DNA of 20,805 nt. It comes from a virus. Shown here one piece after another: positions 4,808-20,804 of this stretch. How positions within the stretch are numbered: position 1 is the first letter of the stretch; each line of letters opens with the position of its first letter. The DNA is taken from positions 1 through 20,805 of IMG/VR virus record IMGVR_UViG_3300025383_000129; one strand, written 5' to 3'. The translations under genes were made by a program, and so were the position numbers. The notes beneath the pieces were generated by a model. That model was given only the letters and a program-made list of their open reading frames with translations. It was not told the origin of the DNA and ran no database searches.

Positions 4808-4961
4808 GTGCATCTTTGTTCCAACGCTTGATGTGTACAAAACAAGGGAGATGGGGCTTCGTGCCGCCATCTGCCACGGAACAAAAACATACGCCAAGAT
4901 TGGAATCAAAAATGGTTTGCTTGGCGTGCTGTTCTTTAGACGCGGGAAGTTGCCTTCCTAA
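4767..4961 (+). CDS. small basic phage protein, function unknown
   Basis: A 64-residue basic protein (MLKNFNWETLKPGECIFVP...). The ATG at 4767 is chosen because AAAAGGA at 4754-4760 stands six bases before it; an in-frame upstream ATG at 4737 has no such site. The gene begins inside the last 41 bases of the primase gene and so is probably translationally coupled to it. It ends at 4961 after crossing the stop codon of the convergent late operon (4936). The pattern 'LKPGECIFVP ... REMGLRAA ... YAKIGIKNGLLGVLFFR' suggests a compact alpha/beta fold, with the pattern of a conserved small phage gene. No function can be given. It is the last gene of the replication block. Confidence 0.6.
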   Translation: MLKNFNWETLKPGECIFVPTLDVYKTREMGLRAAICHGTKTYAKIGIKNGLLGVLFFRRGKLPS

Positions 4962-7900
4962 AATTAGCAGAGAGTTTTTGTTTAGCTTCATCAATGCGGT
5001 CTAAACGCTCTCGCTTTTGGTCTGCGGTCAGGTGTGGTGAGTTTTGAATTATCCGTGTTTGCGCCGCAAACTGTGCCATCGTGTTTTGAAATTGTGTTGC
5101 TAGTTTTGCAAGCATTAAACGATCTTTATTGGCAAGCATATACTCTCTAGCTTCTTGTCCACGCCCTTCTTTGACCATTGTATTGAACGTGTTCTGCGCC
5201 TTGATTGCGTCTTGCGCTTCTTCATAAGCAATGTTTTCATCACCTCCACCAAACTTCTTCTGGAATGCGCTACCAATTAATGGCGCCTCAGTGATACGAG
5301 CGGCAGGTTTTTCAGTACCAGGTTTGAACAAATCATTGGCGGCACCGGCGGCGGCAAGAGGTAACTGTCCTAAATAACCTTTGACAATGTGCTCTAACTT
5401 AATAGGGGAAATTACTCCGCCAACTAAGTGACTCATTTGTTTAGCAAGTTCTGTAGTGTTTGCAGTAATGCGTTGCTCAGGATCTAATTTTTGCAAACGT
5501 GCAGACTCTAAGGGTTGCATGTAGTTTAAATCTAAATTCAGTGCAGCTTCTGCAATAGGCTTAATTACTTGTGGCACGCCCTTGGAACTATACCCAGGAA
5601 TTGAACTAGAAAATAACTTAGCTAATGCCCCTGCTTGATCTTTAGTTTCAGCCGTACCATTGATTGCATCTGCGGCGGCGGCACCAAGAGAAAAGAAATA
5701 ACCAACCTCGTAAGGTACAGGAATCTTTATAGGCTCTTCAAGACCAGGCAAGAACACAAACATGTTACTGTACTTATCTTGTAGCGTTGCATTCTTATAG
5801 TAAGGATTGTCTGATAGCGCAAAGCCGTATGCTAAACCTGAACCCGCCAAAGTAAGTGCTGTATTGTAGAACTTCTTCTTGATGTTCAGTTGGTCATTAA
5901 AAGGCATATTGCCACGAGCGGCTTTAGCAAATGAGTTGAGCGCTTGGATTTGTCCGTTCATGAACGGGATCATTCTGTTGGTATGTTGAACTGACGCAGA
6001 CAATCCACGCTTTTGATAGTTCACAATTTCACGAGCCGCAACTTCAGCTTCAACCTCAGACATACCTTTTTCACGAGCATTCTGATATACCAAAGCACGT
6101 GTAGACGCATCAGCATCCAGCGCCATCTTATCGGCTTTTGAAATTAACCATTGAATAGCGTTTTGATCTTTACCACTTGCCAACTGCAAAGCATATTTAG
6201 AAATGTCGCTACTGTCGCCTTTGAATATTTGACTGTGCAAAATACCTTTTCTTATAAGCTCTGCGCCAACTTCACTCTTACCCCTTTGCATTTGAATAAA
6301 GTTTTTACCGGCGGCAAGCACAGCCATTAAAGGATTTTTATCCACACCACCAGTTGCTATTGCCGCTATAGGATCACGAAGCAATTGATGCGCAAGATAA
6401 AGCGGAGTTCTTGTAACACCTGAACGCAACAGATCTGATGCATCGCCTGCAAGTTTTAAGTAAGCTGGTAAACTGAACGCAGTACCTTCAATACTCTTCA
6501 TGATCATGGCATCGGGCACACCCTCCATGACAGTTCCTGCGGTATTAATTTTTATCCAACGGTCGCCAGTATCTGCGGGATTTTTGGGATCGGGTTCTTG
6601 TGTGAAACGCAATACGTTTTTATCTGCTGGACCTTTACCTGTGTGCACAATCATTTCATTTTTGCCGCCATTTGGACGAGCATTACCAATTTCTTGGAAC
6701 GCATAGGCAATAGATTTTTGTGTAAGGTTAGTCAAGCCCTTATCTGTTAAGAGTAACGTGTTTTGCAACATTGACTGATCGAGTGGAAGTATCTTAGTCT
6801 CGCCACCTTTTAACGCATGCAGATATGGCTGATTTTTTATGTCGCCAACTTTGATCATGACGTTGTCATTGAAAATTAATTCAGCTTTTCCATCAGCGCC
6901 AACACGGTAGAACGGAACATAATCTTTATCCCGCATTAAATCTGCGGCGGCTTTCTTAGTGATTGCGCCAGTATCAGCAAGGAATTTGATCTGCCCTTCG
7001 TTGTAGGCATTATATTTAGTGCGGACATCTTCAAGCGCGGCTTTCATAGCGGGACGGGAATCCACATACGCCATTGTGTCCTGCAAATCTTTTTCACTTA
7101 AACCAAGTTCGCCAATGTCAAGTTTCTTCAAGCCTTTGTTAAGTGCACGAACAGCAATAAGATAGGCGGTTGCCATGTCGGTTTTGCCTTGAGCATTGCC
7201 TTCTGGTATGGCGGAAATAGCTTTAAATACGTCGGTTCCGCTATTTTTATTACGACTTTGAACTCCTTTAAGTCCTTTCTCATCCGTATACATTTCAAGC
7301 GGACCTTTGCCCAAGACAGACATTGCCATCTGAACTTTGTCGTCACCACGTATGATGTGTGAAATAACTTGAGTAGCAAGATTAGGATTGTTGATTTCTT
7401 TAGCGCCAACAGTAATTGCTTTTCTTAAGGCGGCACGCATGTCGACAGCTTCCATTTCAGCTGCAAGGGCTGACACATTGCTCATCTTGTCTTTGAGTGT
7501 GGGCTTTTGTGCAATTACTTTTTGAGTCAATCTAGACAACGGGTTGTCTGTACCGTAATCAGCTTTGCGTGAAAACAAAGGTTCTTTAGCAGGACCGATA
7601 GGATTTAAATCAGATGCAATAATTTTTGCGCCATTTTCTTTATCCGCAAAATCAACGTAGTTTCGGTAGCCTTCTTTTTTTCCACGCGAGTAACCATCCC
7701 AATGCTTGCTACCAGCAATACCGTTTGCTTCCATTATTCGTGATGCAAATTCTTGAACTTGTTTGTCAGGAATACCCACGGCTTCCATTGCATTTTCTAC
7801 GGCGCCAATAATATCTCTACCGGATCTGCGATCTTCAGGCATTTCCTTAAGCGCTTTATTAAACGCTATTTTTTGGTCTTTATTAAGCGAATTAAATAGG

Positions 7901-10900
7901 TTTGCTAAGCTATTCTTTACATGCTCACTTTGAGCTTCAAGGGGAGCATCCCAATCAAGATAGTGGTCTTCAGGACTGGTGTGTAAAGTTCTATATAGTA
8001 CCCCTTCTGTTTTAGGTACAGGTGGTTCAGTTATTTTTGGTTGCTCAAAACCTTGACCATTTTTTTCTGTTGTTTTAATATATTCTTCAAGAGCGTTTAA
8101 TGTCTTTTCAAAACTTTCAATAGAAGGAAATGTCGAACCAGAAAAGCCTGTAGTAAACGGGTCAGGTTTTCTTCCTAGCTTTTTATCTACTTTAAGAGTT
8201 TCTCTTTCTTCATTAATTGTGTTTTGTATGTGATTTAGAAATTCTTGTTTAGCGCGTGCTTCATCCCCAGGTTTTAACATTTTTTCTGGAACATCCGAAT
8301 ACGCAGACAAAAAGTGTACGTCATTAAGTGCGGACACAATAGGTCCAATAAACCCAGGAGGTATACCAGCTTCAGGATCTTGTAAAACAGTTTGTATACT
8401 TTTTCCATTAAAAGTAGGCTCTAAAGATTCAGCCCATGCTTTCATTTTAGGATTGTCATATCTAGCTGCGTTTACTTTTTCAGCTCCCTCATCTGCATAG
8501 TGTTTAGCAACTTTTTTCTGTTGCCCTCTATAAGTACCCCACCCAAATGCTTGGGCGCCTTCACCTGAACCCATGTGAGTAAAATCAAACTCACCAAACC
8601 TAGCGCCTGATCCGTGCCATGTACCTTTGAGTTCTAAGTGTGCGGCGCCATAAGCCAAATCAACGAGGTCTTGTGCAGTCAATTCTTTTGGACTTAAACC
8701 TAAACGTGCCAATACATTTTTAAATGAGTTAACAACAGTATTTAACCAATTTTGAAGCGCACTTCCTTTTTTTGTTCCGCTAGGATCTATGCCAGCTTTA
8801 AGTGCTTCTTCAACTGTATAAGCAAGCATTTCATCATCAACTTGGTCAGGTTTAGTTTTAGCGGCTTCTACGCGAGCGCGAGCAGCTTTTGCTACACGAG
8901 ATTCTATTGAGTTATCATTCCTGGCTTCCCACTGCTTAACAGTTTCTGCCAGTGCCTTGTATTGATCTTTGTTAAAGAAATTTCTAAAACCTAAGTGTGT
9001 ACCGACTTCATGCAATAAAACGCTTAGTCCTTCACCCTTGTTAATGTTCTTGGCAAATAAGTACGCCTTACCATTGGGCAATACCACGCCTTTAGCGTCT
9101 GAAGGCAGCCCTTCTAAATTAAGACTTTCTGGTGATGGTAGTATCGTAAGTTTATGCGTAATGTAATCATTGCCCCGACCGGTAACACGTTCACCCATTG
9201 CTTGCGTTAACTCGGCTTTAAGAGAGTCTGTAGTATGCGGCTCTGTTGCTGTACCTCTAGATAATTCTAAGTCCTTGTTTACTTTTTTAGTTGCGCCCTT
9301 TTTAGGTTGCTTGTTGCTTTCGGTTTCTAGTTTAGCCGCAGTCTTAGCAACTCGATCTTGATACTTAGAAGATGCTTTACCTAATTCAACCGCTTTGTTA
9401 TAACCCTCAAAAGTTGTTTGCGCACGCAAAGCATTAGCGCCATTGATGTCCCCGCTCTGTCTAAGATCTGCAATTTGTTGATTGCGTTCCTTCATAAACG
9501 CTTTGTGTTCAGGCGTTTTAATTCCTTCTGCGTGTGCCATTGCACGCATCTCTGGCGTCTCGGCGGCTTGCGATATAGTTTCGGGCGTTACATTTTCTTT
9601 AGTTGGAATTACTTCGCCCTTTGGTCCAAACATTTCTTGTTGACCAGAAGTTTTTCTTGGCGCGATTTCTGGCGCGATTTCGGTTTCAGTTGGCGCGATT
9701 ACGTCTTTAGGTATTGGCGCTTCTTTCTCATTAAATAAAGGCGCTGTCTGACCTTCTGGGGTAGCCGCAATCCTATCTGCTTCTGTTTGATTACGAAGCG
9801 CAGTGTCTTTATAGTTCTGTCCGTGAAATAAAACACGTTGACTTTTATCTGGTTTTGTAGGTTGTTCAGCCGTGGGTTGGTCAAAAGATACCGCATCTTC
9901 TGGAGTTTGTGCCACGCCTGGGGGTGTTTCTTTTTCACTAAACAAAGGCAAAGTCTCGCCTTTACCTGTAGCTTGTTTAGCTAACTGCAAACGTTGTTGG
10001 TCGTGCAGATCAAGCAAATCTTGTTTTTCTTTTTGTAACTTTTGTAGTTTTTCTGCTTGCTTTCTAGCGCCTTCAAAGTTGCCAATCTCAGGATCTTTAG
10101 CTTTGTTATATGCGTCAGTAGCAGTCTTAATTTTTTTATCGACCGTATCAACTTGTTTCTTAGCAAGCGTCTCAAACTCTGATGGTTCAGATAAAACTCC
10201 ACCAGCATCTCTAATAGATTGTTCCGCAAAATTAATTCTGTGGTTTAAACCTTCATAGGCATTGTGTAAATCCGCAAATTCTTCAGGTGCGGCATTGTGC
10301 ATTCTTTGTTCAATTTCTGCTTTCTTTTCAAGCATTTGCTTGTGTTCATCAACCAAGTCAAGAACATTGCGTTTAGCGCCTTCAGGTGTTTCCATTCCTG
10401 GAAGTTGTTTAGGCGTTGGGGTATACCCAAGTAACTTTGGTGGTTCTTCTTCAGTTTTAAGTAGCTTTTGAACACGGTGATATTCAGGCGCTAAATCTTC
10501 GACAATTTTCTTTTGTTCAGCAACAGCATCTTTTTGTTCTTGATGTTCGATTGCTAAGTGTGGCGGCTCATCTTTACCCGGTGCCTTGCCAAGAGCGTCA
10601 CGCATTTGGGTATATTTTTCCCATGCGCTTTCATAATCGTTCTTAATTTTTTGAAGATATTCAGGGTGATCCTGATCTACTTCAGTTTTTTGGTTGAGCT
10701 TGGCACGAGCTTCTTCACCTTCAACGGCTGCTTTTTTAAGCAATGTTTCTGCGTCGCCTCTAGCGCCCATCCCATGAAGCGCACCGAATAAGGGGGACAT
10801 GCCCACACCCATCTTTGCATTTTGCAAATAGGCTTCTTGTGCTTCAGGAGAAGTTAAACTTTGTCCTGTGGCGGCGCGAGTCAGTGCTTCATTACCGACC

Positions 10901-11682
10901 ATCATGCCTGTACCAACAACCGCATTTTGTGCAGTACCTTGAGCAATATTTCTAAGTGTACTGCCGACTTGTTTACTTGCTTCTTCAGCAGTTAATTTAC
11001 CTGCCAATACTTCAGGCGCTAAAGCCATAGCTTGTTCTTGCGCAGTTTTGCCTAAGATGCCTTTTAGTGGCGCATTAAATATAGCACCTGCCAATGAATC
11101 AATAGCGGTTTGTCCAATACCTGCGGCAATAGCGGCAGTGTAATCAGGCGTTTGTCCTAGTTTCTTTTGGGCAGCTATATTCTCACCAATGTGTATAGGA
11201 GCATTGGCAGCAGCAAAACCCAAAGCACTTGCTAAACCAACTTCAGGAGCAGCAGCTGCCGCGCCCATGCCTGCAAGTGTAGGAAGACCATAACGTCCAG
11301 CAATATTACCTACGGCTTCGCCAACAGGCTCAGTAATATATTTACTTAAATAAGCGCCGGCTTCAGGTAAAAAACCTTTTGCTCTAGCTGCTGCAATATC
11401 TTGTTCAGAAGTAGGTTGGTATGTTTTTGCGGCTGACTCTTCTAAACGTTTGCCGTAATCAGCTAAAGCGGGTAAGCCTGTAGTTTCTCCAATACCCTGC
11501 GCAGTTGATCCTAAACCACTTTTTACTCCTGCACCTAATGCGGAGAAAAGTCCTGAGTCTGGACCAGGCATGCCGTATAGTTTTGGAAAATGTTCTTTAG
11601 CTTTTGCTAGTGCTTGATCATAAGACACATTATCAGGTACCTCAAGAGAGTTACCATCCGGCAGAGTTAAATACTTTGGCAT
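4936..11682 (-). CDS. giant polyvalent/internal virion protein with peptidase-like and ART-like domains
   Basis: A 2248-residue protein, last gene of the late operon and probably packaged and ejected with the DNA. Order: a short N-terminal module (LPDGNSLEVPDNVSYDQALAKAKEHFP, 6-32); Ala/Gly-rich hydrophobic helices (about 45-310); charged coiled coils (about 310-560); linkers with PLF/QQEMF motifs (579-581, 648-650, 681-685); a metallopeptidase-like segment LLHEVGTHLG (H891, E892, H896); an ADP-ribosyltransferase-like domain (about 1020-1350) with HGSG at H1023, GEGAQAFGWGTY ending at Y1051, YLDWD around W1244 and a late NYVDF strand; another PLF motif at 1368-1370; and a long helical C-terminal region with RTPLYLAHQLLRDP near 1767, like large polyvalent-protein-associated domains. 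The start ATG is two bases after the upstream stop. The peptidase spacing is HExxxH rather than HExxH, so activity is uncertain. Role in ejection and host modification is inferred from family architecture. Confidence 0.8.
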   Translation of the reverse strand: MPKYLTLPDGNSLEVPDNVSYDQALAKAKEHFPKLYGMPGPDSGLFSALGAGVKSGLGSTAQGIGETTGLPALADYGKRLEESAAKTYQPTSEQDIAAARAKGFLPEAGAYLSKYITEPVGEAVGNIAGRYGLPTLAGMGAAAAAPEVGLASALGFAAANAPIHIGENIAAQKKLGQTPDYTAAIAAGIGQTAIDSLAGAIFNAPLKGILGKTAQEQAMALAPEVLAGKLTAEEASKQVGSTLRNIAQGTAQNAVVGTGMMVGNEALTRAATGQSLTSPEAQEAYLQNAKMGVGMSPLFGALHGMGARGDAETLLKKAAVEGEEARAKLNQKTEVDQDHPEYLQKIKNDYESAWEKYTQMRDALGKAPGKDEPPHLAIEHQEQKDAVAEQKKIVEDLAPEYHRVQKLLKTEEEPPKLLGYTPTPKQLPGMETPEGAKRNVLDLVDEHKQMLEKKAEIEQRMHNAAPEEFADLHNAYEGLNHRINFAEQSIRDAGGVLSEPSEFETLAKKQVDTVDKKIKTATDAYNKAKDPEIGNFEGARKQAEKLQKLQKEKQDLLDLHDQQRLQLAKQATGKGETLPLFSEKETPPGVAQTPEDAVSFDQPTAEQPTKPDKSQRVLFHGQNYKDTALRNQTEADRIAATPEGQTAPLFNEKEAPIPKDVIAPTETEIAPEIAPRKTSGQQEMFGPKGEVIPTKENVTPETISQAAETPEMRAMAHAEGIKTPEHKAFMKERNQQIADLRQSGDINGANALRAQTTFEGYNKAVELGKASSKYQDRVAKTAAKLETESNKQPKKGATKKVNKDLELSRGTATEPHTTDSLKAELTQAMGERVTGRGNDYITHKLTILPSPESLNLEGLPSDAKGVVLPNGKAYLFAKNINKGEGLSVLLHEVGTHLGFRNFFNKDQYKALAETVKQWEARNDNSIESRVAKAARARVEAAKTKPDQVDDEMLAYTVEEALKAGIDPSGTKKGSALQNWLNTVVNSFKNVLARLGLSPKELTAQDLVDLAYGAAHLELKGTWHGSGARFGEFDFTHMGSGEGAQAFGWGTYRGQQKKVAKHYADEGAEKVNAARYDNPKMKAWAESLEPTFNGKSIQTVLQDPEAGIPPGFIGPIVSALNDVHFLSAYSDVPEKMLKPGDEARAKQEFLNHIQNTINEERETLKVDKKLGRKPDPFTTGFSGSTFPSIESFEKTLNALEEYIKTTEKNGQGFEQPKITEPPVPKTEGVLYRTLHTSPEDHYLDWDAPLEAQSEHVKNSLANLFNSLNKDQKIAFNKALKEMPEDRRSGRDIIGAVENAMEAVGIPDKQVQEFASRIMEANGIAGSKHWDGYSRGKKEGYRNYVDFADKENGAKIIASDLNPIGPAKEPLFSRKADYGTDNPLSRLTQKVIAQKPTLKDKMSNVSALAAEMEAVDMRAALRKAITVGAKEINNPNLATQVISHIIRGDDKVQMAMSVLGKGPLEMYTDEKGLKGVQSRNKNSGTDVFKAISAIPEGNAQGKTDMATAYLIAVRALNKGLKKLDIGELGLSEKDLQDTMAYVDSRPAMKAALEDVRTKYNAYNEGQIKFLADTGAITKKAAADLMRDKDYVPFYRVGADGKAELIFNDNVMIKVGDIKNQPYLHALKGGETKILPLDQSMLQNTLLLTDKGLTNLTQKSIAYAFQEIGNARPNGGKNEMIVHTGKGPADKNVLRFTQEPDPKNPADTGDRWIKINTAGTVMEGVPDAMIMKSIEGTAFSLPAYLKLAGDASDLLRSGVTRTPLYLAHQLLRDPIAAIATGGVDKNPLMAVLAAGKNFIQMQRGKSEVGAELIRKGILHSQIFKGDSSDISKYALQLASGKDQNAIQWLISKADKMALDADASTRALVYQNAREKGMSEVEAEVAAREIVNYQKRGLSASVQHTNRMIPFMNGQIQALNSFAKAARGNMPFNDQLNIKKKFYNTALTLAGSGLAYGFALSDNPYYKNATLQDKYSNMFVFLPGLEEPIKIPVPYEVGYFFSLGAAAADAINGTAETKDQAGALAKLFSSSIPGYSSKGVPQVIKPIAEAALNLDLNYMQPLESARLQKLDPEQRITANTTELAKQMSHLVGGVISPIKLEHIVKGYLGQLPLAAAGAANDLFKPGTEKPAARITEAPLIGSAFQKKFGGGDENIAYEEAQDAIKAQNTFNTMVKEGRGQEAREYMLANKDRLMLAKLATQFQNTMAQFAAQTRIIQNSPHLTADQKRERLDRIDEAKQKLSANFRKATSRV
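4944..4959. terminator. weak hairpin in the convergent gene overlap
   Basis: GGAAG (4945-4949) pairs with CTTCC (4954-4958) around a TTGC loop, with one added G-T pair at 4944/4959. It sits exactly within the 26-base overlap of the two convergent gene ends. It has no clear U-tract on either side, only TAAAATT on the plus strand, so it is at best a weak or accessory terminator. Confidence 0.25.
7626..8625 (-). other. ADP-ribosyltransferase-like domain within the giant protein
   Basis: Residues about 1020-1352. Visible elements are H1023 in WHGSG, the glycine-rich GTGEGAQ-type stretch (here GSGEGAQAFGWGTY) ending at Y1051, and downstream LDWD and NYVDF segments. The H and Y positions match the first two elements of H-Y-E type ADP-ribosyltransferases. 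I cannot assign the third catalytic residue with confidence. Confidence 0.6.
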
Positions 11683-19125: not shown

Positions 19126-19545
19126 TTAAGCAATAGTTGCACCGGACTTTAATTGAGCAATAGTCAGATTATTTGTGTATTGGAAGTGCGCCAATTCTTT
19201 AAAGTGCACCCAATTTCCAGCCCATTCTAACCCGTTTTCAACGCCAAGTCTACCAATTTCTGCCCATACAGGATGCGTGCCATCCCAATCTGGCTTACCA
19301 TTAACAATCGGAACAACGTCGATTGCGCAACGATGATTATGAAAACTGTCGCCAGGTCCTGCATTTGTTACGATTTTACCAGGCGCCGTACGACCTTGCG
19401 CATATAACGCAGCTTGGCTTTCATTGTCGCGGTAAGTAGACGTAACAAGAATGTCGATTCCTGCCTGTTTGCAGGCTTCAATGAAAGCGTCAACCTTTGC
19501 TTTAACTTGTGGTAGTAGTTCATTTAAATCCCTTGAGTTAATCAT
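19126..19545 (-). CDS. endolysin, M15-type L-Ala-D-Glu peptidase
   Basis: A 139-residue peptidoglycan-cleaving enzyme of the M15 (VanY-like/T5 endolysin) type. The zinc site motif S-x-H-x4-A-x-D is visible as S67-F-H69-N-H-R-C-A74-I-D76. The second part is E107-W-A-G-N-W and A-H120-F-Q, matching the E and H of the family. S-T-Y-R (36-39) is another family signature. No signal peptide is seen, so release needs a holin. I place the start at ATG 19545, with GGAG eight to ten bases upstream, and not at the TTG at 19560. It overlaps the upstream membrane protein by 8 bases. Length and motif order fit the family well. One G of the usual E-W-G-G is Ala here. Confidence 0.88.
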   Translation of the reverse strand: MINSRDLNELLPQVKAKVDAFIEACKQAGIDILVTSTYRDNESQAALYAQGRTAPGKIVTNAGPGDSFHNHRCAIDVVPIVNGKPDWDGTHPVWAEIGRLGVENGLEWAGNWVHFKELAHFQYTNNLTIAQLKSGATIA

Positions 19546-19759
19546 TTTTCTTTTCTCCAATGTGAATACCAGTAATCAAACCTAAAAAACCACCGCAAAT
19601 ACTTTGAAATGCGGGACCAACAATATCAAACACAACCTTATCATCAACTGTTGGATCAAGCACTGCCTGTACAAACATCCATATCATGGAAGCAATAACG
19701 CCCATTAAGGACACAGTTGCAATTAAAGTTACACATCCTTTTAAAGTCCAGTCTTTCAT
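19538..19759 (-). CDS. small two-TM membrane protein, second holin or antiholin candidate
   Basis: A 73-residue protein with two predicted membrane segments (about 8-32, GCVTLIATVSLMGVIASMIWMFV, and about 46-66, VGPAFQSICGGFLGLITGIHI) and a charged tail GEKKND. This is the size and topology of a class II holin or of an accessory holin. Its ATG overlaps the stop of the 3TM-type gene as ATGA (19756-19759), and its end overlaps the endolysin start. A ribosome binding site-like AAGGTGA precedes it. Whether it is the holin, an antiholin or another membrane protein cannot be decided from sequence. Confidence 0.55.
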   Translation of the reverse strand: MKDWTLKGCVTLIATVSLMGVIASMIWMFVQAVLDPTVDDKVVFDIVGPAFQSICGGFLGLITGIHIGEKKND

Positions 19760-20160: not shown

Positions 20161-20400
20161 CTAATTACAGTATCTTGGTAGATACCCAGTTTGCCTAAAC
20201 ATTTTGTAACACTCAACCTCTTTACCATCATTCATAAAGTTTTTTTTAAACTCTATATACCAACCTTCATCTTCTCGCCGTGCTAAATAATCCTGTCTAA
20301 TATAGAACATCAAACCAAAAATTGTCAAGCAGACTGCAAAAATACTGGCGATAACGGCGATTTGAAAGTTTCGTTTATCGCGTGAAACACGCCTTTCCAA
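20161..20400 (-). CDS. membrane segment and tail, likely -1 frame extension of upstream gene
   Basis: A 79-residue reading frame that lacks a good start: the only candidate is a TTG at 20400 with no clear ribosome binding site, inside the upstream gene. It encodes a basic segment (ERRVSRDKRNFQ), one strong membrane segment (IAVIASIFAVCLTIFGLMFYI) and a C-terminal tail with two cysteines (ECYKMFRQTGYLPRYCN). Upstream of TTG the frame stays open through KDAQEAL back to the A9 run at 20417-20425, where the preceding gene could shift by -1. The joined charged helix reads smoothly into this frame, so I think it is the C-terminal part of one 214-residue membrane protein. An independent small protein from TTG is the alternative. 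Confidence 0.55.
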   Translation of the reverse strand: MERRVSRDKRNFQIAVIASIFAVCLTIFGLMFYIRQDYLARREDEGWYIEFKKNFMNDGKEVECYKMFRQTGYLPRYCN

Positions 20401-20804
20401 GGCTTCTTGCGCATCCTTTTTTTTTGAGCTTTGTCAAAATTGGCTTTGTCTTTTACAAGCCTAGCCCGTTCCGTTTGAAACTCTTCCCAAATAGCGCCCA
20501 GTTCTGGGGGCGTATCGTAAATCAATGTTTGGCGTAGATCGTACTCAGCTTGTTGCAGTCGTTTTCTGGCAAGCACATTTTCTAAAGCTTGCGCCTGAAT
20601 AGATTTACCTTTTGGCGGGTTCTTTTCTTTTTCTTTTATTTCTTGTTGCGCTTTTTCTTGGTGTTCAAAGAACGTACCAAGCCCTGTAGAAATTTCTTGC
20701 ATTACCCCATAAGCTTCTTTGCCAACAGACTTGTATTCTTTATACAGAGCTACGCCCTGCTTTACAGCAGAAAGCACACCTAGACAAATACTTATGGGTT
20801 CCAT
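20325..20804 (-). CDS. helical coiled-coil protein, zero-frame product with A9 slippery run
   Basis: A 159-residue, mostly helical protein (MEPISICLGVLSAVKQGVALYKEYKSVGKEAYG...). The middle is charged (EHQEKAQQEIKEKEKNPPKGKSIQAQALENVLARKRLQQAEYDLRQTLIYDTPPELGAIWEEF), typical of a phage late-gene family. After KAQKK (K128, K129) the zero frame continues for 30 basic residues (R130 to A159, ending FLQSA) that overlap the membrane-segment frame and look less protein-like. The codons CAA AAA AAA AGG hold the A9 run. A -1 slip after K129 would give a 214-residue protein. The ATG at 20804-20802 is one base from the window edge, so its ribosome binding site and the upstream gene are not visible. Confidence 0.65.
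   Translation of the reverse strand: MEPISICLGVLSAVKQGVALYKEYKSVGKEAYGVMQEISTGLGTFFEHQEKAQQEIKEKEKNPPKGKSIQAQALENVLARKRLQQAEYDLRQTLIYDTPPELGAIWEEFQTERARLVKDKANFDKAQKKRMRKKPWKGVFHAINETFKSPLSPVFLQSA
20417..20425 (-). other. A9 slippery run, candidate -1 frameshift or transcript slippage site
   Basis: Nine A on the minus strand (nine T on plus) read CAA AAA AAA AGG in the zero frame. A -1 slip on the A-AAA-AAA heptamer makes the next codons AAG GAT GCG CAA GAA GCC TTG, which enter the membrane-segment frame with no stop. A TGA in the -1 frame lies just upstream (in TTTTGACAAAGCTC), so any frame change must occur near this run. A sequencing miscount of the homopolymer would give the same picture. 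Confidence 0.6.

Follow-up and report, generated by a model that had tools for sequence, protein, structure and literature searches.

At one end of the window, by which we mean the whole stretch of viral DNA analyzed (20,805 nucleotides), the minus strand carries a gene for a coiled-coil protein that heads a lysis cassette, followed downstream by genes for a holin, a 73-residue membrane protein and an M15 endolysin. The features of the locus are listed below.

20804-20325, minus strand: coiled-coil gene, zero-frame ORF of 159 amino acids, at the end of the 20805-base viral contig
20418..20804, minus strand: N-terminal domain, residues 1-129 in the zero frame, helical, common to the short and long products
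20417..20425, minus strand: candidate slip site, A9 (T9 on the plus strand), zero frame CAA AAA AAA AGG
20325..20417, minus strand: zero-frame tail of the short product (RMRKKPWKGVF...), without protein-level constraint in relatives
20161..20424, minus strand: -1-frame extension of the putative long product, kept in all slip-type relatives; its 87 codons run from the third base of CAA and are closed by TAG
20299..20361, minus strand: predicted transmembrane helix IAVIASIFAVCLTIFGLMFYI, from hydropathy and flank charges
20167..20211, minus strand: C-terminal EC(x10-16)C motif, two conserved cysteines past the membrane helix
19756..20151, minus strand: three-helix holin (PF11351 GTA_holin_3TM / phrog_3427), starting 9 nt after the -1-frame stop
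19538..19759, minus strand: 73-aa membrane protein of the same cassette, with a homolog in the cassette of relative L240 and no family match
19126..19545, minus strand: endolysin, VanY/M15 peptidase (PF02557, phrog_6523)

In the zero frame, the slip site reads ...GCT CAA AAA AAA AGG and its CAA AAA AAA contains the heptamer A_AAA_AAA. The -1 frame encodes KKKDAQEALERRVSRDKRNFQIAVIASIFAVCLTIFGLMFYIRQDY...ECYKMFRQTGYLPRYCN and closes with the stop TAG at 20161-20163, so that a shifted product would join 127 residues to 87 for a length of 214 amino acids, with QKKKDAQEALER as the region that spans the junction. An earlier note on this DNA had placed CAA AAA AAA AGG and its A run at 20417-20425 and had proposed products of 159 and 214 residues; its description of the sequence proved right throughout. 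Its main reading, a programmed -1 frameshift, is supported here by the conservation of the A9, by protein selection on the -1 frame, by the lack of a start belonging to that frame and by the continuity of the protein in single-frame relatives. A second run, A8 in the context GAG TTT AAA AAA AAC TTT, lies within the tail coding region at 20240-20247 of the window (minus strand) and at 10287-10294 of relative L253.

Searching IMG/VR with the N-terminal domain yielded 80 loci at first, to which further scans with other family members and a scan with the tail alone added more, leaving 207 distinct sequences after removal of identical stretches; the N-domain searches imposed no selection for an A run. 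We class 127 of the 207 as slip-type and 73 as single-frame, with 7 unclassed (6 that end at a contig end and L164, which has a frame break), although the loci come from limited, largely freshwater metagenomes and are partly near-copies, so that these distinct counts overstate independence and the sets of 40 and 50 sequences used below are a fairer basis. The run is A9 in 125 of the slip-type relatives and A10 in the other 2, one of which arose by substitution with the -1 relation kept; A7, A8 and A11 do not occur. In 109 of the 207 relatives the A9 starts in a CAA or GAA codon (phase 1), whereas in 16 it has moved by one base to give TTA/CTA AAA AAA AAG (phase 2). Across ~99 kb of the window and its sister contigs, A or T runs of at least nine are found at the slip site only.

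The codons of the run are constrained more tightly than the protein requires. Among 40 sequences that differ by >5% in nucleotides (under 95% nucleotide identity), 42 degenerate codon columns are conserved in amino acid; synonymous variation is seen in 39 of these, and the only columns without any synonymous change are the CAA, AAA and AAA of the slip site. Elsewhere in the N-domain the synonymous alternatives are in use, with Lys encoded by AAG in 164 of 496 cases and Gln by CAG in 71 of 288. Likewise, AGG follows the run in 38 of the 40 sequences, against 35 of the 157 Arg codons counted in the rest of the domain. The fact that Lys-Lys-Lys is absent at the junction position in single-frame relatives further indicates that protein function does not explain the run. 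Judged from these alignments, the A9 is conserved far beyond chance, and the slip-prone site keeps its nucleotides beyond amino-acid needs in the manner of recoding genes.

Downstream of the run, differences fall at -1 codon positions 1, 2 and 3 in the proportions 1350/963/3186. Over the first 20 codons, the -1 frame has a synonymous fraction of 0.40 where 0.21 is expected; for the zero frame the observed and expected values are 0.26 and 0.19, and for the +1 frame they are 0.19 and 0.20, all calculated from sequence pairs that are not independent of one another. The zero-frame tail is no better conserved in amino-acid identity than the +1 frame, and its end point differs between relatives, giving tails of variable length, which agrees with the earlier impression that this extension looks like out-of-frame translation. 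From these patterns, protein selection is seen to act on the -1 tail and not on the zero-frame tail.

What the -1 frame encodes is uniform, and bears out the membrane helix and cysteine-containing tail first noticed in the window. A strong membrane helix is present in 122 of 122 tails, with a median best 21-residue hydropathy of 2.5, and the EC x10-16 C cysteine pair is found in 121 of the 122 distinct tails. Lys and Arg residues around the helix number 7.7 before and 4.6 after it over the same 122 tails, which suggests that the long form is oriented N-in, C-out. The C-terminal tail looks modular, in that close N-domains carry either a WYIEFKKNF...ECYK or a WHIMFMKHYYDDS...ECEH type, as if exchanged by recombination (L009-L017, L011, L291-L305, L377-L383).

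In other relatives, the two parts of the protein are joined without any shift. L307-L313 encode the N-domain, the membrane helix and the Cys tail in one frame of ~213 amino acids that lacks the A run, and ~70 more distant relatives, including MW202462 and MW202484, carry the N-domain and membrane helix in one frame. In N-domain, spacing and membrane helix, the single-frame homologs match the slip type. In addition, the genomic A10 of L239 encodes the long form directly, so that relatives of the N-terminal part do continue into the membrane segment in one frame, which was a check proposed in the earlier note. When aligned to the single-frame relatives, L239 is gap-free from a conserved WxxF motif via the junction into the membrane helix, and an AlphaFold2 model of this natural in-frame homolog (mean pLDDT 81) has helices at 3-27, 32-61 and 69-97 and one helix at 100-179 that passes through the junction. 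Both results are in keeping with the view that the charged helix runs smoothly into the -1 frame. In this one phage contig (L239 2602-3246; L320 3001-3645), the A10 with its single 215-aa frame, set against A9 in the near-identical sisters L241-L246, may be a natural frame-locked variant or a read error.

The single-frame relatives show two further arrangements. Distant ones have a second small membrane ORF with start candidates of its own, such as MVGNVILMLILVFCLTFGGFLFMDYK..., which lies in the -1 frame across the 3' end of the gene, and the overlapping pair sits before lysis genes (L095-L120, L160, L166, L172, L255, which is MW202484, and L082, which is MW202462, 6092-6757). In some single-frame relatives (L123-L162, e.g. 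L125 3791-3934), the membrane helix is immediately preceded by the A-rich CGA AAA AAA AGA, and another membrane ORF, of 48 amino acids and in the +1 frame, overlaps the stop.

A tree of 50 N-domains over 88 columns, many forks of which are weak, places the slip form in one large clade with the phase-2 form inside it, and weakly places a single-frame subclade (L308, L311, L313) inside the slip clade beside the slip-type L306. The simplest reading of this tree would be one gain of the run, one change of phase with its length kept and one loss; the phase change was probably a single event. The single-frame relatives live without a short form, which is therefore not essential everywhere.

Could the -1 frame instead be a separate membrane gene with its own start, in an ordinary overlap? 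Distant relatives such as L095, MW202462 and L172, with their small overlapping ORFs, offer a precedent, but they also have a zero-frame membrane helix, and it is with that in-frame helix that the slip-clade tail aligns. Of 94 distinct slip-clade sequences, 56 lack any ATG, GTG or TTG over the opening 24 codons of the -1 frame, and candidate starts, where present, are not conserved. In slip-type relatives, a stop lies 1-18 codons upstream of the run and the open stretch holds no start codon in any of them, matching the description of a frame closed just upstream with no good start. The tail-only search recovered 67 distinct tails, all attached to this N-domain gene, 66 of them slip-type and 1 (L239) fused in frame through its A10; none of the 67 is a separate gene with its own start, the arrangement that the earlier note had set against its own reading. 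We therefore reject a separate start, which seems very improbable. Protein selection on the new frame and the absence of its own start are both features of recoding genes.

Two further alternatives concern the run itself. A sequencing or assembly error, with a true A10 and the gene in one frame, had been raised from the window and draws on the fact that A9 is a homopolymer and that L239 combines an A10 with a single frame. The same A9 recurs, however, in 125 distinct sequences from many contigs and metagenomes, and an error would neither strip the run codons of synonymous variation nor hold nine A's through a change of codon phase. On these grounds we exclude it, as hardly credible. Genetic switching of the long form by replication slippage in the run (phase variation) would suit a homopolymer just ahead of a membrane segment in another frame, and also the A10 of L239, but phase-variable tracts differ between isolates and here the length is near-constant among the 127 slip-type relatives (125 A9, 2 A10 and 0 A8). 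It was likewise rejected, its chance being slight.

We consider it likely that the gene, conserved among freshwater tailed phages, is recoded to give a short product and a -1-extended one. Through the A9, one gene very probably gives a short soluble protein and a longer membrane-fastened protein. Expression would usually lead to a soluble product of ~150-165 amino acids, consisting of the helical domain and an arbitrary short tail. A fraction of expression events would instead involve a -1 shift inside exactly nine A's, with the same long helix running on into the membrane helix, followed by a short tail with two cysteines that is predicted to lie in the periplasm; this product would have ~214 amino acids. 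We infer that the phage makes both forms and needs them at a set ratio.

The shift could occur on the DNA template or on the ribosome, and both mechanisms would give an identical protein, ...QKKKD..., with the genomic A10 of L239 as the equivalent of a one-A insertion. Nine A or T residues is a run length at which slippage of bacterial RNA polymerase is well documented (PMC5009743; PMC6260861), A9 being enough (PMC5009743), and the products of slippage are mostly single-A insertions (PMC5574713). A one-base insertion at the run leads exactly into the -1 frame, and an A/T homopolymer of about nine or more, as in the transcriptional slippage of Thermus thermophilus dnaX and tssM1, is present in 127 of 127 slip-type sequences. 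Slippage of RNA polymerase that adds one A is, in our estimation, the more probable mechanism. A search of eight sister contigs for a T7-type RNA polymerase (PF00940) gave no match, and the controls were equally silent.

In classical programmed -1 ribosomal frameshifting, P- and A-site tRNA-Lys would slip together on A_AAA_AAA to give the same two products. This has a real though lesser chance of being correct. The heptamer is in frame in phase 1, and A_AAA_AAG is in frame in phase 2 as well; of the features of stimulated bacterial sites of the Escherichia coli dnaX or IS911 type, the locus has the X_XXY_YYZ heptamer but not the Shine-Dalgarno (SD)-like motif or the stem-loop. An SD-like motif is absent from the 22 nt upstream of the run in 35 of the 40 sequences. 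RNAalifold, which models nested structures, predicts 0 conserved pairs in 30 aligned downstream stretches, and single-sequence structure z-scores downstream of the run have a mean near 0. The window has a local hairpin downstream of the run (GCCTTggaAAGGC, CGTGtttCACG), which was considered as a stimulator and rejected, since it is not conserved and some relatives lack any predicted structure. Although some bacterial sites work without stimulators, heptamers of that kind are weak in E. coli, reaching at most ~10-fold over controls that lack the motif (PMC4066793), and sliding of the ribosome in vitro is weak at A9 (PMC4363877). Furthermore, seven A's would suffice for the ribosome, yet nine are always kept, even in the subclade in which the run is displaced by one codon phase. 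The lack of an SD-like motif, the lack of conserved structure and the retention of nine A's through the phase change together favor transcriptional slippage over ribosomal frameshifting; this retention probably goes back to a single phase change, may partly reflect amino-acid constraint in two frames and is an argument rather than a proof.

Known systems offer partial parallels. As in Citrobacter rodentium tssM1, where transcriptional slippage on an A11 tract was shown to occur without stimulators and both forms are needed (PMC4256274), the phage gene has a coding A tract with no SD motif or structure nearby and appears to yield a membrane protein in two lengths, the longer of which arises in tssM1 by an added A. 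It differs in protein and system, and the A11 is rare among tssM genes, whereas the phage A9 is conserved across a large clade. The T. thermophilus dnaX gene likewise produces two products in a set ratio by transcriptional slippage on a nine-base run (PMC5009743), as is presumed for the phage gene; in dnaX, a cytoplasmic clamp-loader protein, the zero frame gives the long product and slippage the short one. Lambda G/GT, a known phage frameshift (PMC5009743), and other tail assembly chaperones share with our gene a -1 shift near the gene end, a C-terminal extension and a conserved site. Unlike G/GT, the gene lies not between the major tail and tape measure genes but before a lysis cassette, its extension is a membrane helix with cysteines, and a sequence match to the chaperone family is absent.

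Searches of Pfam, PHROGs, PDB sequences and PDB folds returned no protein of known function. Structural matches in BFVD (Foldseek, probability 1.0) are to uncharacterized proteins only, from uncultured Caudovirales (A0A6J5LM43, A0A6J5L7T4 and others), and the listed lengths of several (132-166 aa) would presumably fit the short or a truncated form. The gene neighborhood is more informative. An endolysin resembling that of the window lies within 2 kb downstream in 66 of the 97 slip-type loci with enough sequence. Other cassettes in the family comprise a phrog_1544 membrane protein with an M15-like endolysin (L048) or with another endolysin type, phrog_7 (L313), and Rz/Rz1 spanins with a 75-aa membrane protein and a peptidase endolysin (L240); an Rz/Rz1 pair is also found in the distant L095 cassette. 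This place directly before holin, spanin and endolysin genes makes a lysis-associated role our best guess, tentative as it is. The protein might act at the inner membrane around lysis, its soluble form competing or assembling with the anchored form. The lambda S gene, a single lysis-cassette gene, gives a holin and an antiholin (S105/S107) that differ at one end. The phage gene likewise lies at a lysis cassette and would give two products that differ at one end, but lambda uses two start codons, whereas here a frameshift would add or omit a membrane anchor of one predicted helix, and homology to holins is absent. It is also unlike a spanin (Rz/Rz1, with an N-terminal membrane helix and periplasmic coiled coil, or a lipobox) in that its membrane helix is C-terminal, and the L240 and L095 cassettes have an Rz/Rz1 pair besides it.

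Tail-fibre genes lie upstream and virion genes are among those further downstream, and phage frameshifts are known mostly in virion assembly genes, where they set ratios of tail or capsid proteins. As the main rival to a lysis role, the protein could be a virion (ejection or tail) component, with frameshifting setting the ratio of soluble to membrane-inserting copies, but holin, spanin and endolysin genes follow immediately downstream in very different family members, and we regard a virion role as somewhat unlikely. To return to lysis, the most specific combination, in which the A9 is a transcriptional slippage switch that sets the soluble-to-anchored ratio of a lysis-timing protein across a large freshwater phage clade, is an improbable one as a whole. 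If true, an error of RNA polymerase, and not a second start codon or gene, would tune the timing of host-cell burst.

The conserved shift would here decide membrane fastening at the head of the lysis genes of an abundant, uncultured freshwater phage group. In the databases searched, the protein has no assigned function; gene callers would be expected to cut it off at the run. The exact A9, which survived a shift in codon phase and which one subclade seems to have lost, also provides a natural comparison of transcriptional and ribosomal slippage by evolution. Among bacterial genome assemblies, a single related contig turned up (L088, in a Bacteroidetes MAG, possibly mis-binned). In the window itself, the virion gene block is closed by a very large ORF of 2248 amino acids at 4936-11682 on the minus strand.
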